Source: Reyranella sp.
GTDB taxonomy: Bacteria > Pseudomonadota > Alphaproteobacteria > Reyranellales > Reyranellaceae
Length of the DNA: 64,000 nt
Reading direction: 5' to 3'
NCBI RefSeq assembly: GCF_004297405.1
Contig: NZ_SCVC01000007.1
Span: forward strand, 62,001-126,000
Positions 21,690-28,967 of this stretch are shown here, one piece after another. The position numbers and the translations under genes were made by a program. Below the pieces are notes generated by a model. That model was not told the origin of the DNA, did no database searches, and saw only the letters and a program-made list of their open reading frames with translations. The first letter of the stretch is position 1. Each line of letters starts with the position of its first letter.

Positions 21690-22925
21690 TCAGTGATCGT
21701 AGCGGGAGAAGAGCAGGCAGGCGTTGGTGCCGCCGAAGCCGAAGCTGTTCGACAAAACGGTTTGCAGGCCGGCGTTGTCGATGCGCTCGCGGGCGATCGG
21801 ATAGCCCTCCGCACCAGGGTCGAGGTTTTCGATGTTGGCCGATGCGGCGATGAAGTCTTCCTTCATCATCAGGAGCGAATAGATCGCCTCGTGCGCGCCG
21901 GTGGCGCCCTGGCTGTGCCCGGTCAGCGATTTGGTCGAACTGACCGTCGGAAGCTTGTCGCCGAACACCTTGCGGATCGCATCGAGCTCGGTGATGTCGC
22001 CGACCGGCGTCGAGGTGCCGTGCGTGTTGATGTAGTCGACCGGCAGGTTGCGCCGGGCACCGCCGTCGAAGCCTTCGAGGGCCAAACGCATGCAGCGCAG
22101 TGCGCCTTCACCCGAGGGGGCCACCATATCGGCGCCGTCCGAGGTCGCGCCGTAGCCGATCACTTCGGCGTAGATCTTGGCGCCGCGCGCCTTGGCGACC
22201 TCCAGTTCTTCCAGCACGAGGATGCCGCCGCCACCGGCGATGACGAAGCCGTCGCGGTCCTTGTCGTAGGCGCGGCTCGCACGCTGCGGCGTGTCGTTGT
22301 ACTTCGCCGACATGGCGCCCATGGCGTCGAACAGTACAGACAGGGTCCAGTCGAGCTCTTCGCCGCCACCCGCGAACATGCGGTCGGCCTTGCCGAGCTG
22401 GATGCACTCCACGGCATTGCCGATGCAGTGCGCTGACGTCGAGCAGGCGGAGCTGATCGAATAGCTCAGCCCCTTGATCTTGTAGGCAGTCGAGAGGTTC
22501 GCCGAGACCGTGCTCGACATGGCGCGCGGCACCTGGAAGGGGCCGACCCGCTTGGGGCCCTTCTCCTTGGCGATGATCGCGGACTGCACGATGGCGCCGG
22601 TCGTCGGGCCACCCGAGCCCGCTACCAGGCCGGTCCGTTCGTTGGAAATTTCCGCCTCGCCGAGGCCTGCATCTGCGATCGCCTCCTTCATGGCGAGGTA
22701 GGCGTAGGCGCCGCCGTTACCCATGAAGCGCATGAGGCGCCGGTCGACCAGCTCCTCGACATTGAGTTTGAGTGTGCCGGCGATCTGGCTGCGGAAGCCC
22801 AGTTCCTTGTACTGCGGGACGAACTCGATACCCGACTTGCCGTCCTTCAACGATTTCGTCACCTCGGCGGCATTGTTGCCGATCGGGGAGACGACGCCGA
22901 GGCCGGTGACGACGACGCGCTTCAT
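21690..22925 (-). CDS. fabB: 3-oxoacyl-[acyl-carrier-protein] synthase I
   Basis: 411 residues from ATG 22925; the longer open frame to 23216 is antisense-free extension through fabA. FabB elongates acyl chains and is essential for unsaturated fatty acid synthesis. Catalytic triad residues: Cys in [18 protein letters not shown], His in [14 protein letters not shown], His in [15 protein letters not shown]. The C-terminus [12 protein letters not shown] is canonical. Its start overlaps the fabA stop (ATGA), so the two are translationally coupled, matching their joint role in the anaerobic unsaturated fatty acid pathway. Confidence 0.97.
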
Positions 22926-23455
22926 CAGCCCGCCGCTGCGGCCGGCGCCGCGTCCTGGAACAGGCCGACTTTCAGGCCGCTCACCTCGAAGACCTGCTCG
23001 CCGTCGGCATGAACGACACCGTCGCCAATGCCCAGGACCAGCTTTCGCAGGATCACGCGCTTGAGATGCACGTGATAGGTCAGCTTGCGCACCGTGGGGA
23101 CGATCATGCCCGTGAACTTGACTTCGCCGACGCCCAGCGCCCGGCCACGACCCGGCGCCTTCATCCAGCCGAGGAAGAAGCCCAGCATCTGCCACAGCGC
23201 GTCGAGGCCGAGGCACCCCGGCATCACCGGGTCGCCCTTGAAATGGCAGGCGAAGAACCAGAGGTCGGGCTTCACGTCGAGCTCCGCCACGATCTCGCCC
23301 TTGCCGTACAGGCCGCCCTTGTCATCGATCTTGACGATACGATCGAACATCAGCATCGGCGGCAGCGGCAGCTGGGCGTTGCCCGGGCCGAAAAGGTGCC
23401 CCTTGGCGCACTCGATCAGGTCTTCGAAGGTATAACTATGCTTCTGCTCGCTCAC
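22925..23455 (-). CDS. fabA: 3-hydroxydecanoyl-[ACP] dehydratase/isomerase
   Basis: 176 residues from GTG 23455, close to the ~172 of the family; a GTG two codons earlier (23461) is possible, but AGGA spaced 8 bases away favours 23455. FabA dehydrates 3-hydroxydecanoyl-ACP and isomerises the product to the cis-3 form, the branch to unsaturated fatty acids. The active-site His is in [20 protein letters not shown], nearly identical to the enterobacterial motif. First gene of fabA-fabB-fabI. It is divergent from irr. Confidence 0.96.
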
Positions 23456-24033: not shown

Positions 24034-24078
24034 ACGACGCGTGTCTGTAATCTAAGGCTTGCGAATCGTTTGCAAGTT

Positions 24079-24093
24079 TTAGAATAGTTCTAA
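24079..24093. promoter_or_regulatory. Irr-box / iron control element upstream of rubrerythrin
   Basis: TTAGAA (24079-24084), TAG, TTCTAA (24088-24093), a perfect 6-3-6 inverted repeat preceded by TT. It agrees with the TTTAGAA-N3-TTCTAAA form of the iron control element bound by Irr. It lies just upstream of a -35-like TTGACG (24099-24104) and between irr and the rubrerythrin gene. Confidence 0.7.
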
Positions 24094-24098
24094 TCTTC

Positions 24099-24128
24099 TT
24101 GACGGTATCGCCGCCGGAATCCTAAATC
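24099..24128 (+). promoter_or_regulatory. Possible rubrerythrin promoter
   Basis: TTGACG (24099-24104; 5/6) and TAAATC (24123-24128; weak) with an 18-base spacer. It lies immediately after the Irr-box and ends 44 bases before the ATG. Confidence 0.4.
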
Positions 24129-24172
24129 CTCGGTGAGATTGGCGGATGGGCCGATCGCATAGGAGGAAGACC

Positions 24173-24690: not shown

Positions 24691-26049
24691 ATGCGCGAAG
24701 GCAGCCTCGAAGCCCCGATCCGACACGCTCTCGATTGGCAGAACCCCTGGTTCTGGGACGAGAAGGCGCTCGAAAAGGAGATGGAGCGGGTCTTCGATAT
24801 CTGTCACGGCTGCCGACGCTGCTTCAACCTCTGCGATTCCTTCCCGCGTCTGTTCGACCTGATCGACAACGGTCCGACCGGCGAACTCGACGGCGTGAAG
24901 AAGGAGGACTACGCGCAGGTCGAGGAAGCCTGCACGCTCTGCGACATGTGCTTCATGACCAAATGCCCCTACGTGCCGCCGCACGAATGGGCGCTCGACT
25001 TTCCGCACCTGATGCTGCGCCATCGCGCGGTCCAGGCGCGCAAGAACGGCGTCGACTTCGTGGCGCGGCAGCTCGCCGACACCGATCGCATGGGCCGGCT
25101 CGGCACCTTCACTGCCACGGCGGCGAATTGGGTGACCGACGAGCACAACACGACCATGCGCAAGAGCATGGAAAAGTTCGCGGATATCCATCACGGCGCG
25201 CGCCTGCCGCGCTATGCCGGGGAAACCTTCGAAATCCGCGCGCGTCGCGAAGGCGCTGAACTGAACGAAGCCGCACCCGCCTTCGGCAAGCGCAAGGCCG
25301 TGCTCTACGCAACCTGCTTCGTGAACTTCAACAATACCGACATCGGTGCCGCCGCGCGTGCGGTGCTGGCGAAGAACGGTGTCGAGACCGAGGTCGTGCA
25401 TCCCGCCTGCTGCGGCATGCCCAAGCTCGAACTGGGCGACATCGAATCGGTCGCTGCGGCGGCCCACAATGTTTCGGCGGCGCTGCTGCCGTGGGTCGAC
25501 AAGGGCTACGATATCGTCGCGCTGACGCCGTCCTGTGCGCTGATGCTGAAGTTCGAATGGCCGCTGATCTGTCCCAAGGATCCCGCCATCGAACGCCTGA
25601 GCAATGCGACCTTCGACCTCTCCGAATATATCGTCGACATCGCCAAGAAGAACGGGTTGGCGCCGGGCCTCGAACCCCTGGAGGGAGGCGTCAGCGTCCA
25701 TCTCGCCTGCCATGCGCGGGCACAGAACATGGGCGCCAAGGCGGCCGAAATGCTGCGCCTCATTCCCAAGACACGCGTGGCGGTAATCGAACGCTGCAGC
25801 GGCCATGGCGGCATCTGGGGCGCGCGCACCGAGAATTTCGAGACGGCGGTGAAGGTCGGCAAGCCCGCGGCGCAGACCGCCCTCAAGAACGACACCAGCT
25901 TCGTTGCTTCGGAATGCCCGCTGGCCGCCGATCATCTCATGCAGGTGATGGAAATCACGGCCGGCGAACAGAAGCCCAAGCCCTCGCGTGCCGATCATCC
26001 GATCGAGCTGCTGGCGCGCGCTTACGGTATCGGAAGGCAGGAAGCATGA
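24691..26049 (+). CDS. GlpC/heterodisulfide-reductase-like Fe-S protein
   Basis: 452 residues. Two ferredoxin-type motifs bind [4Fe-4S] clusters: CHGCRRCFNLC near residue 38 and CTLCDMCFMTKCP near 80. Two CCG-type modules follow, the first ending PACCGMPKLE near 240. The second ends ERCSGHGG near 369, where CSG replaces CCG, so one ligand is lost. Related proteins are electron-transfer subunits such as GlpC. No signal peptide or clear membrane segment. Its stop overlaps the DUF3501 start (ATGA), and the rubrerythrin gene precedes it, a set seen in many proteobacteria. A role in feeding electrons to rubrerythrin is inference. Confidence 0.85.
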   Translation: MREGSLEAPIRHALDWQNPWFWDEKALEKEMERVFDICHGCRRCFNLCDSFPRLFDLIDNGPTGELDGVKKEDYAQVEEACTLCDMCFMTKCPYVPPHEWALDFPHLMLRHRAVQARKNGVDFVARQLADTDRMGRLGTFTATAANWVTDEHNTTMRKSMEKFADIHHGARLPRYAGETFEIRARREGAELNEAAPAFGKRKAVLYATCFVNFNNTDIGAAARAVLAKNGVETEVVHPACCGMPKLELGDIESVAAAAHNVSAALLPWVDKGYDIVALTPSCALMLKFEWPLICPKDPAIERLSNATFDLSEYIVDIAKKNGLAPGLEPLEGGVSVHLACHARAQNMGAKAAEMLRLIPKTRVAVIERCSGHGGIWGARTENFETAVKVGKPAAQTALKNDTSFVASECPLAADHLMQVMEITAGEQKPKPSRADHPIELLARAYGIGRQEA

Positions 26050-26633
26050 CCCCGCGCAAGATCGATGCCTCGATGATCATCCCGCTGGCGGAGTATGTCG
26101 GCCAGCGTGCCGAGCGCCGCAAGCGGATCGCCGAGATCAAGAAGAGCCGCCGGCTCGAGGTCGGGCCGTTCGCGACCTTCTACTTCGAGTCCTACGATAC
26201 GATGCTGCACCAGGTGCACGAGATGCTCTTCATCGAGAAGGGCGGCGCCGAACAGCTCGTCGACGAACTCGCGGCCTACAATCCATTGATCCCACAGGGC
26301 AGCGAGCTAGTCGCTACGGTGATGTTCGAGATCGACGATCCGCTGCGCCGCGCGCGCGTCCTCGCCACGCTCGGTGGCGTCGAGCAGCGTGCGTTCATCC
26401 GCATCAACGGCGCGACAGTGCGTGGCGTGGCGGAAGACGATCAGGAGCGCTCGCGTGAAGACGGCAAGGCCTCGGCCGTGCAGTTCATCCGCTTCCCCTT
26501 CACTGCTGCCGAGAGCGCCGCCTTCAAGAGCGGTGCGGGCGACGTCGTGGTCGGCTTCGACCATCCCAACTACGGCCACATGGCCGTGATGCCTGAGGCC
26601 GTTCGTCAGGCCCTCTCGGCCGACTTCGCCTGA
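26046..26633 (+). CDS. DUF3501 family protein
   Basis: 195 residues, cytosolic, no membrane segment. Opens KIDASMIIPLAEYVGQRAER and contains GPFATFYFESYDTMLHQVHE and RFPFTAAESAAFKSG, which I recognise as DUF3501. No catalytic motif is evident. It is translationally coupled to the Fe-S protein (4-base overlap), and the rubrerythrin-FeS-DUF3501 order points to a shared redox or iron-stress function that has not been defined biochemically to my knowledge. Confidence 0.82.
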   Translation: MTPRKIDASMIIPLAEYVGQRAERRKRIAEIKKSRRLEVGPFATFYFESYDTMLHQVHEMLFIEKGGAEQLVDELAAYNPLIPQGSELVATVMFEIDDPLRRARVLATLGGVEQRAFIRINGATVRGVAEDDQERSREDGKASAVQFIRFPFTAAESAAFKSGAGDVVVGFDHPNYGHMAVMPEAVRQALSADFA

Positions 26634-26643
26634 CCTTCAAGGT

Positions 26644-27684
26644 CTATCGCATCCCGTAGTTCATCGGCAGGATCAGCACGATCGGGTCGCCGAGCATGCC
26701 GCTCGGCACCGGTGGCAGCGGCATGGCACGGCGGATGGCGGCAAGTTCGGCAGCATCGATGATGGGCCAGCCGCTCGACCGCTCGACTTTGGCGTCGACG
26801 AGCTGGCCGTTGCGATTGATCGTGACGCGCGTCACCACGCGGCCCGACTGGCGGTTCTCGCGCGCGCTCGGCGGATAAACGCGGTACGGCTCGATGTGGC
26901 GGAACACGCGCGACAGGTAATCGTTGCGCATCCCGCCCTGTCCGGCTGCCAGGTCCGAATTCGAGGCCCCAGCGGCTGACGATGACAACAGGCTGGCGGT
27001 CGATTGCTGCTCGCCCACCGATGACGATGAAGACGATGCAGCGGGCGGCGGCGGTGCTGGTCGCGGCGGGGCAGCCGTCTGCGCGCGCTGCACGGGTCGC
27101 GGTGGCGGCGCGGCGCGTTGCGGCTTTGGAATGTCGCGCGAGGTCGGCGGCGGTGGCGCTTCTGGCGGTGGCAATGCCTCCTCGAAGGTTACCTGCGGCT
27201 TCCACGCCGACGCGTCGGTCTGCCAGGTCGCCTGCGGATCGGCTTCAGCGGGAGGTGACGGTTCCACCGCTTGTGCTGCTTGCTGCTGGGGCTGTTGCGG
27301 CTCCCGCTGCGGTTCGGCTTGAGGCGGCTGAGGCTGCGTCGGCGCTGTCTGCGGCGGCGTTGGTGCCGTCGCGGTTTCCATCGTGGGCGTGGAGGTGGAG
27401 GCACTGGAGGCCGGCGCGCCCCCGGCGGAGGCCGCGCTGTTCTGGGCTCCCGTGCTCGACCCGCCGAGCGGTTCGGGCTCGACCGAGACCATGATCGGCG
27501 TTTCGGCGTGATCGTCGGAGTGCAACGGCGAGATCCACCACAGCGCCGCTGCGATCCCGACATGCAAACCAATCGCCAGGGTGAGCGCCGCCGGCGACAT
27601 GCGTCCGGATTGCGACACACCGGCGGGCAACGCCCCGCTGGGCAACGCCCCGCCGGGCGAAGGAAGGATGCTGTCGTGGGTCAC
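26644..27684 (-). CDS. TonB-like energy transducer / TonB C-terminal domain protein (copy 2)
   Basis: 346 residues from GTG 27684; ATG 27600 is an alternative, but the paralogue upstream begins with a matching GTG and HD motif, and the DNA before both starts is similar. One N-terminal membrane helix (LTLAIGLHVGIAAALWWISP), a ~180-residue Pro/Ala/Gln-rich spacer, then a TonB C-terminal domain (RVYPPSARENRQSGRVVTRV, then IDAAELAAIRRAMPLPP). TonB proteins span the periplasm and energise outer-membrane receptors with ExbBD. No exbBD or receptor is adjacent. Product of a tandem duplication with the next gene. Confidence 0.85.
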   Translation of the reverse strand: MTHDSILPSPGGALPSGALPAGVSQSGRMSPAALTLAIGLHVGIAAALWWISPLHSDDHAETPIMVSVEPEPLGGSSTGAQNSAASAGGAPASSASTSTPTMETATAPTPPQTAPTQPQPPQAEPQREPQQPQQQAAQAVEPSPPAEADPQATWQTDASAWKPQVTFEEALPPPEAPPPPTSRDIPKPQRAAPPPRPVQRAQTAAPPRPAPPPPAASSSSSSVGEQQSTASLLSSSAAGASNSDLAAGQGGMRNDYLSRVFRHIEPYRVYPPSARENRQSGRVVTRVTINRNGQLVDAKVERSSGWPIIDAAELAAIRRAMPLPPVPSGMLGDPIVLILPMNYGMR

Positions 27685-27752
27685 GGCACCACTTGTTCTA
27701 CGACCCGTGCGGATCAGGGGCCAGCCGGAACGGCAGCCCTTGTGCGGTCGGC

Positions 27753-28967
27753 TTAGCGCTGCTCGTTGTAGCGGAAGCTGACCGGCAGCATGAATGTATG
27801 GCTGGCGCCGGGAATTTCACCGGGCAACGGCGGATAGGGCGACGCTTTTCGGATCGTCTCCATCACACCGGCATCGAGCGAGGCCAGTCCGCTCGACTTT
27901 TCCATGACGACATTCATCAAACGGCCGTCCCGCGCGATGGTTACGCGCGTCAGCACCGTTCCTTCTTCACGGATCGTGTTGGTATTTTTGGGCACGTACG
28001 GGAACTGCGCGATGCGGCGCATGACCGACCAGAGATACTGCTCCTGTGCACGCTTGTTGCCGAAGTTATCGGCTGGATTGCGGAAGGTCGGCGCCGGTTC
28101 GGCGGCGGCCTGGCGGTCAGCCGGCGCACGCTGTTGCGGCGCCTGGCCGAGCGGCGAGGGCCGCAGGGCCTGCTGCTGTTGCGGCGGCGGGTGCTGGGGA
28201 GGCGGATGCTGCACCGGTGGCGGAGGAGGAGGGCGCGTCGCCTGCGGTGCTGGGGGCTTCGGTGCGGGCGGAGGCGCGGGCGCCGGCCGTGGCACCTCGC
28301 GCTCGGTGACGGGAGGCGGTGGCGCTTCGAGCGGTGGTAGCGCCGCCTCGAGCGATGGTGGTGGAGGCTGCGGCGCCGGTGTGGGCTCAGGTTGCGGCTG
28401 CGGTTGAGCGGCTGCCTGCTGCACCTCCGGCGGCTTGGCCGGCTCTGGCGGTGGCTCCGGCGTCTCCGCCTTGGCGGTCTCTTGTTGAGGGAGGGGCGGC
28501 TCTTCCTTCGCCGGCGGCGGCGTTTCAGCCGGTTTCTCGGCTGTCGTCTCGGTTCCCGGCTTGGCCTGGGGATCGGTCGTCGTGCCCACAGGCGGCAGGC
28601 CGAGCCGCTGTACCGGTGTGCGCGATTGCTGGGGGGGCTGCTGGGGTGCTTGCTGGGGCGGCTGTTGAGGCGGCGGCTGGACGGCCGCCGTCGGCACCGT
28701 CGTGGTAGGGGGCGTGGCTGGTGGCGGTGTCGGCGCAGGCGTGGGGGCCGGTTCTGGTTCAGCGGCGGCCTGCGGCGGTGGCGCAGGCTCCGGCGGCGCA
28801 TCCATCGTGATGTTGATGGCGTCCTCGAAATGGTCGACCGGCCGCAGCGGCGAGATCCAGAAGAGCGCCATGGCGACCAGCACATGCAGCGTCGTCGTCA
28901 GCAGGATCGCCGACGGGGGCATGCGGTCGAAGTGGTGGGCGCGGGTGAAACTTACGTCGTGGGCCAC
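27753..28967 (-). CDS. TonB-like energy transducer / TonB C-terminal domain protein (copy 1)
   Basis: 404 residues from GTG 28967. Same plan as its neighbour: N-terminal helix (ILLTTTLHVLVAMALFWISP), a very long Pro-rich spacer (about residues 45-290, rich in PPPP, QPPP and PEPP runs), and a TonB-type C-terminal domain (REEGTVLTRVTIARDGRLMN, then ETIRKASPYPPLPGEI). The spacer is ~60 residues longer than in copy 2. ISPL after the helix and the GTG-xHD start are shared. 68 bases separate the two genes. Target receptor unknown. Confidence 0.85.
   Translation of the reverse strand: MAHDVSFTRAHHFDRMPPSAILLTTTLHVLVAMALFWISPLRPVDHFEDAINITMDAPPEPAPPPQAAAEPEPAPTPAPTPPPATPPTTTVPTAAVQPPPQQPPQQAPQQPPQQSRTPVQRLGLPPVGTTTDPQAKPGTETTAEKPAETPPPAKEEPPLPQQETAKAETPEPPPEPAKPPEVQQAAAQPQPQPEPTPAPQPPPPSLEAALPPLEAPPPPVTEREVPRPAPAPPPAPKPPAPQATRPPPPPPVQHPPPQHPPPQQQQALRPSPLGQAPQQRAPADRQAAAEPAPTFRNPADNFGNKRAQEQYLWSVMRRIAQFPYVPKNTNTIREEGTVLTRVTIARDGRLMNVVMEKSSGLASLDAGVMETIRKASPYPPLPGEIPGASHTFMLPVSFRYNEQR

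Follow-up and report, generated by a model that had tools for sequence, protein, structure and literature searches.

Organization of the irr-rubrerythrin locus

The window, by which we mean the whole 64-kb stretch of DNA under analysis (64,000 nucleotides; G000:C14:62001-126000), belongs to a genome assembly of 6,464,269 bases (6.46 Mb) in 50 contigs, the nearest named relatives of which include Reyranella species. It holds a gene for a Fur-family regulator of the IrrA type, divergent from fabA and followed by a rubrerythrin gene and two further genes that presumably belong to the same operon (Table 1). The regulator scores 196.5 bits against the NCBIfam model NF045678 (IrrA; cut-off 150) and 181.7 bits against NF045677 (cut-off 170). 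There is no cysteine among its 135 residues, and as such it carries neither the N-terminal GCPWH heme motif, which is of the Bradyrhizobium type, nor a Cys4 zinc site; to our knowledge, the GCPWH motif is not needed in every Irr protein. A HHHH stretch is present, which contains the HXH pattern that has been named as the heme motif of Irr (PMC7762939).

A preliminary description of this DNA had called the downstream gene rubrerythrin, which stands insofar as the product is of the rubrerythrin type, but not as regards the classical kind: it has no rubredoxin domain, and reaches only 141.8 bits against the NCBIfam model for classical rubrerythrin, for which the cut-off is 200. Together with the GlpC-like Fe-S oxidoreductase (RFO) and the DUF3501 protein it constitutes an aerobic-type rubrerythrin cluster, as this cluster was defined, and RFO named, by Cardenas, Quatrini and Holmes (2016, PMC5114695). 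A ribosome site (AGGAGG) occupies positions 24161-24166, and transcription of the operon is predicted to start near 24134.

Table 1. Features of the irr-rubrerythrin region, in window coordinates.
Feature	Position	Strand	Basis
fabA, 3-hydroxyacyl-ACP dehydratase, divergent from irr	22925..23455	-	TIGR01749, 284.2 bits (cut-off 238)
irr, Fur-family iron/heme regulator (IrrA type), 135 aa	23626..24033	+	NF045678, NF045677
Further conserved dyad TGCGAATCGTTTGCA, Fur-like, separated from the downstream Irr box by 4 bases	24060..24074	.	genus alignment
Irr box / iron control element TTAGAA-TAG-TTCTAA	24079..24093	.	motif, rarity, conservation
-35 element TTGACG, rubrerythrin promoter	24099..24104	+	CTTGACG in 42/42 aligned genus loci
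Probable -10 element CTAAAT, 17 bases past -35	24122..24127	+	position, partial conservation
Rubrerythrin without rubredoxin domain ("aerobic-type"), 139 aa	24173..24592	+	PF02915, 107.3 bits
GlpC-like Fe-S oxidoreductase (RFO), presumed operon gene 2	24691..26049	+	PF02754; NF008369 under cut-off
DUF3501 protein, presumed operon gene 3	26052..26633	+	PF12007, 184.6 bits

A perfect Irr-type palindrome before the rubrerythrin promoter

The consensus of the Irr element is a palindrome of the type TTAGAA-N3-TTCTAA, and the gap between irr and rubrerythrin contains an exact instance of it, TTAGAATAGTTCTAA (TTAGAA-TAG-TTCTAA). This perfect inverted repeat begins 46 bases 3' of the end of irr, and the -35 hexamer begins 5 bases past it; the preliminary description had likewise placed it 46 bases past irr and just before a -35-like TTGACG. 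At up to two mismatches it is the sole match within the window (shuffle expectation 0.10), and a genome-wide scan with the pattern returns two perfect copies in the assembly, where 0.004 are expected from the dinucleotides of the window. When two mismatches are allowed across the whole genome, the pattern is rarer (18 matches) than its backwards control (44), so that loose genome-wide matches are uninformative and near-perfect ones were used. Shuffling of the 139-base gap 20,000 times produced no perfect box and a single one with one mismatch.

Conservation of the box at irr-rubrerythrin loci

Rubrerythrin is present in 80 of 101 genomes, counting the source genome. Within the genus, 42 of the 43 main rubrerythrin loci fetched were aligned (L047, at a contig end and with no box seen, was excluded), and they share a consensus that reads TGCGA.tCgtTTgCA, 3-5 bases, TTAGAANNNTTCTAA, 5-6 bases, TTGACG, and then a -10-like element. 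The box is perfect in 38 of these loci and has one mismatch in the remaining four, while its three central bases take 14 different forms; the arms, in other words, are nearly invariant and the spacer is free.

Beyond the alignment, named records supply 80 irr loci, of which 74 have rubrerythrin directly downstream of irr, and the box is present there at up to one mismatch in 55 of the 74 and at up to two in 63 (shuffle means 0.01 and 0.23, respectively). It is also promoter-proximal, with TTGA[CT] located 3-7 bases downstream in 61 of the 63 boxed loci. For loci that are not Reyranella-like, a box with at most two mismatches occurs in 23 of 34, all of them among the 27 with a rubrerythrin identity of 78% or more; the Thalassospira loci, with a divergent rubrerythrin (55-59%), have no box before this gene. 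Absence of the box before homologous genes had been named beforehand as grounds for abandoning the proposal, and what we find is a box kept across many Irr-bearing families.

Two departures from the usual arrangement were seen. At L051 (G061) the region upstream of rubrerythrin reads CTGGAA-CGG-TTCCAG, a palindrome that is again perfect, both arms having changed together, and that still lies 4 bases before TTGACG. Furthermore, some genus genomes have divergent rubrerythrin copies (L071-L074; 62-75% identical) with CTAGAA-N3-TTCTAR about 92 bases upstream; these boxes have one or two mismatches, and the stretches fetched around them contain no irr.

Genes that carry the box

Among 61 genomes of the genus there are 96 perfect boxes, distributed over 58 genomes, against one match of the backwards control, and 94 of the 96 lie at genes for rubrerythrin, catalase, KatG or AhpC. 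Targets were named by tblastn with proteins of the same loci, and by Pfam and NCBIfam searches of representatives. Fifty boxes precede rubrerythrin, and a further two, located past irr where the contig ends (G009, G043), were scored as rubrerythrin sites by position alone; 15 precede katG and 12 are flanked by katG and a lutA-like gene; two precede a monofunctional catalase gene and another two lie between such a gene and the lutA-like gene; and 11 precede a gene for an AhpC-type peroxiredoxin. The last two are found in G011, between a lutA-like gene and an Nramp-type gene, and in G035 (L189), where no target was identified. With this one box of the 96 left without a target, the 61 genomes yielded no perfect box at genes of iron uptake, iron storage or heme metabolism. 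The iron-storage role that the preliminary description had assigned to the box is thus not borne out.

The other perfect box of the source genome (L001:1501-1515, G000:C11:43104-43118) lies between genes for a monofunctional catalase and a divergent lutA-like protein (CCG domain), and in other species katG replaces catalase beside this same lutA-like gene. At the G011 site (L367:2094-2108, G011:C12:295693-295707) the neighbor of the lutA-like gene is the gene of an Nramp-type (manganese) transporter, and there is no catalase.

In 47 Irr-positive families elsewhere in the class, 25 of 33 perfect boxes are at genes for rubrerythrin (11), KatG (4), peroxiredoxins (5, one of them 167 bases off) or Dps-type ferritins (5). 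One of the five Dps-type proteins is over the Dps cut-off, and the other four have the Dps model as their best match, below cut-off. The remaining boxes are at Fe-S genes (3), irr itself (1) and other genes (4). The Fe-S sites are nearer to the classical iron-sulphur targets of Irr: among loci L191, L368 and L353, G083 has boxes before an NfuA-like gene and before a gene for an Rrf2-type regulator (which is followed by a cysteine desulfurase-like ORF), and G130 has a perfect box beside a cysteine desulfurase-like ORF.

Two candidates in the source genome were set aside. The first, a site with one mismatch in the ahpC-oxyR gap (L003:1501-1515, G000:C11:93380-93394), resembles an OxyR site: the ahpC gaps of the four nearest relatives keep TTAG-N7-CTAA and not the right Irr arm (two mismatches each), for which a LysR/OxyR dyad is the better fit, and two further orthologues have five mismatches. 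The second was autoregulation of irr, for which the best match in the fabA-irr gap has six mismatches; in the 80 named irr loci the 200 bases preceding irr contain a perfect box once, and G065 also has one.

Co-occurrence of the box with Irr

The distribution of the box was compared with that of Irr across 94 families of the class, each represented by a single genome (94 of 96 were used, as two genomes of the genus were excluded). Families were counted as having Irr when a protein exceeded the IrrA cut-off (47 families) and as Irr-less when none was present or the score was below 68 bits (38 families). The former contain 33 perfect boxes against 8 matches of the backwards control, and the latter 10 against 43 (Fisher P about 2e-9), i.e. 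enrichment of the box is confined to the families that have Irr. Nine families with intermediate Irr scores (86-147 bits) have 8 boxes against 7 control matches, and the ratios still stand at 33:8 and 18:50 when these families are scored as Irr-less. Possession of Irr does not entail a perfect box, which 25 of the 47 Irr-positive families lack. G067 and G081, two genomes in which Irr gave no match, carry rubrerythrin orthologues (81% and 85%) that lack the box. In two genomes counted as Irr-less, perfect boxes are found no more than a few hundred bases from Fur-family genes that score only about 62 bits to IrrA (G122:C43, G149:C39); these genes perhaps encode divergent Irr proteins.

A second dyad upstream of the box

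The genus alignment contains a further conserved dyad, TGCGAATCGTTTGCA, which scores 15.6 of 28.0 bits on a matrix built from nine TGCGAATNATTCGCA-type sites of the source genome, a value reached by none of 1,000 shuffles. Six of those nine sites precede genes for proteins with a sigma-70 region 2 domain; we take these proteins to be of the FecI type and the TGCGAATNATTCGCA site to be a Fur box. The dyad differs by two bases from TGCGAATCATTCGCA, the form found at the sigma-70 region 2 genes of the source genome, and the difference in its right arm is consistent (TTGCA, as compared with TCGCA in the Fur box of the genus).

The variant TGCGAATNNYTTGCA has 34 matches in 37 genus genomes, of which 24 are at rubrerythrin (12, one of them by its position after irr) or ahpC (12). 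Single matches precede genes for an FTR1 iron permease, a TonB-dependent receptor, a nitroreductase, a PNPOx-family protein and an aminotransferase-family protein that by eye is 5-aminolevulinate synthase-like; of the rest, three are near a RecF-like ORF and two have no target name (G011, G031). The presence of an iron permease, a receptor and a possible heme gene in this list favors Fur as the probable reader of the dyad. Of 15 distinct genus genomes examined at ahpC, 13 have the dyad at a distance of 21-22 bases upstream of the Irr box (from a set of 21 loci, in which two were not orientable, two came from other families and two repeated a genome), so that the rubrerythrin and ahpC promoters have a two-dyad design in common. 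A second metal input, mediated by the Fur-like dyad, probably acts at both. The pairing is claimed for the genus only: as a class-wide feature it was rejected, given that 16 of the 20 loci scored besides that of the source genome miss P <=0.005, the four that reach it being L052, L055, L058 and L061.

Discussion

From the motif, the adjacent irr gene, the conservation of the box and its co-occurrence with Irr, we infer that Irr binds at this site. Direct control of rubrerythrin by Irr, which the preliminary description had predicted, is well supported by these comparative lines, though the framing of rubrerythrin as an iron-storage target calls for revision. We consider it likely that the box is the operator of a peroxide-defense regulon, at which Irr acts most likely as a repressor that is released by heme or peroxide. 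An Irr dimer produced from the adjacent upstream gene would bind TTAGAA-N3-TTCTAA beside the -35 element and, most likely, block the promoter of the rubrerythrin-RFO-DUF3501 operon under conditions of limiting heme or iron and little peroxide; heme or peroxide would then disable Irr, and the operon would be turned on. The regulon would be small and directed mostly toward peroxide defense, comprising rubrerythrin, a catalase or katG (sometimes from a box shared with the divergent lutA-like gene) and ahpC, to which Dps-type ferritins and another peroxiredoxin would be added in other families.

The sign of this regulation is suggested by the geometry of the other targets and by the behavior of a related system. 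In most of the katG, catalase, ahpC and Dps-type loci the box is 20-76 bases from the start codon, and by eye the promoter elements overlap it, which suits repression. In Rhodobacter sphaeroides, Irr binds the ccpA region, where the start lies about 40 nt past the box, a similar geometry; ccpA is restrained by Irr under iron limitation, being about 2-fold up in the irr mutant under this condition and not at normal iron (PMC3413700). The reverse reading, that Irr activates the operon from the same box when iron or heme is short, is unlikely, yet has several points in its favor. The box at rubrerythrin lies upstream of the -35 element and not over the -10 element, its center falls about 48 bases short of the predicted start of transcription, and the 3-7 base spacing to the -35 element is kept in nearly all boxed loci, all of which would permit activation. 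Irr can activate depending on the position of its box (PMC7762939), and the abstract of the R. sphaeroides work reads Irr mainly as an activator (PMC3413700). In Pelagibacter, rubrerythrin mRNA is reported to rise 1.57-fold under iron limitation (PMC2864753), which, should a box stand there too, would fit activation better than repression.

As for the signal, release by heme is a known behavior of Irr (PMC7762939), and the target set, along with three further observations, suggests that peroxide releases it as well. The protein aligns with Bacillus subtilis PerR (2fe3) such that all five PerR metal ligands match, Irr protein is reported to be lower under oxidative stress in D. shibae (PMC8007024), and the irr mutant of R. 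sphaeroides is peroxide-resistant (PMC3413700). That most targets are peroxide genes argues that Irr here fills the role that PerR has in Gram-positive bacteria, and suggests a peroxide-defense switch rather than mainly an iron switch. It is distinctly improbable that we are dealing with an ordinary Irr iron regulon of the rhizobial type, with rubrerythrin as an iron-storage target. Such a regulon has precedent in the Irr boxes at bfr and the rubrerythrin-like blr7895 of B. japonicum and at mbfA of R. sphaeroides (PMC3413700), and the three Fe-S sites among the 33 boxes elsewhere are of a classical Irr kind. Against it stand the 94 of 96 genus boxes at peroxide-defense genes and the lack of any found at iron uptake, storage or heme genes (one box of the 96 having no target), and the occurrence of Fur-type boxes before sigma-70 region 2 genes suggests that iron uptake is in the charge of Fur here.

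The identity of the reader deserves comment, because the source genome has five Fur-family genes, three of which (L016, L017 and L018) pass no curated cut-off. It is nonetheless very unlikely that a Fur- or Mur-like protein, either of the Fur-like paralogues or a PerR of another kind reads the box in place of Irr: box and IrrA co-occur over the 94 families, irr is the gene next to the box, an element of such sequence is known for Irr, and the Fur-type boxes of this genome differ from it in sequence. The chance of a fortuitous palindrome is negligible, the gap being AT-richer than the window yet yielding no perfect box in 20,000 shuffles, and conservation in the genus alignment and at named irr loci, with a free spacer in dozens of species, rules it out.

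It is useful to compare the proposed system with those already described. The PerR regulon of Bacillus and others includes catalase, AhpC, Dps, rubrerythrin and the regulator's own gene. The target classes here are alike, the regulator's own gene is boxed in one genome (G065), and the five metal ligands (which we take to be H37, D85, H91, H93 and D104) align; unlike PerR, the regulator is IrrA by family scan and without the Cys4 zinc site, and the box is of the Irr type. Irr may work here like PerR, though it is not filed as PerR, as four PerR models give 35.7-68.1 bits against cut-offs of 180-250. Irr is the heme-sensing iron regulator of rhizobia, and in Bradyrhizobium and Rhodobacter its box is likewise of the TTAGAA-N3-TTCTAA type and near the promoter of a rubrerythrin-type gene. 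There, however, the gene is mbfA, whereas here it is a soluble, short rubrerythrin beside irr, and the other targets here are catalase or katG and ahpC (and Dps-type genes in other families), not heme and iron genes. In R. sphaeroides, Irr binds the mbfA region as well as that of ccpA (PMC3413700). The cluster of Cardenas et al. has in common with ours the three genes and the missing rubredoxin domain; the words Irr, Fur and PerR are absent from the main text of that paper (PMC5114695), and a regulator and operator are proposed for the cluster here.

Irr boxes, and control of a rubrerythrin-like gene by Irr (blr7895, mbfA), are already known. As far as open papers show, the aerobic-type rubrerythrin cluster adjacent to irr is new as an Irr target, as are the near-exclusive peroxide target set in the genus, the extension of this set to many families and the pairing of the dyads; in the open-licence literature we recognised no description of Irr boxes at katG, ahpC, dps or the rubrerythrin-RFO-DUF3501 cluster. 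Irr is reported to be common in lineages whose iron control is attributed to Fur (PMC3751524), for which we found little on Irr targets in the open literature, and the census gives it a concrete target in peroxide defense. Further related work includes PMC5459824 and PMC12912731 (both on Magnetospirillum) and PMC3251581.

More tentatively, and with the odds a little short of even, we would extend this proposal to suggest that in alphaproteobacteria outside Rhizobiales and Rhodobacterales, for which Fur is regarded as the iron regulator, Irr is the equivalent of PerR, sensing peroxide through oxidation of metal or heme and controlling rubrerythrin, catalases, AhpC and Dps. The iron role in rhizobia would then reflect the later recruitment of a peroxide sensor, and a Fur-like protein and Irr would share composite metal/peroxide operators at rubrerythrin and ahpC. 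Whether Irr was a PerR-like sensor at the start becomes testable through the census.

Two minor features remain to be recorded. L017 and L018 (G000:C7, C42) are two Fur-like paralogues below the curated Fur, PerR and Irr cut-offs, and L018 adjoins a sigma-70 region 2 gene that bears a TGCGAATNATTCGCA site. Past the rubrerythrin cluster, the window holds at 26644-28967 two proline-rich ORFs on the minus strand with TonB C-terminal domains.
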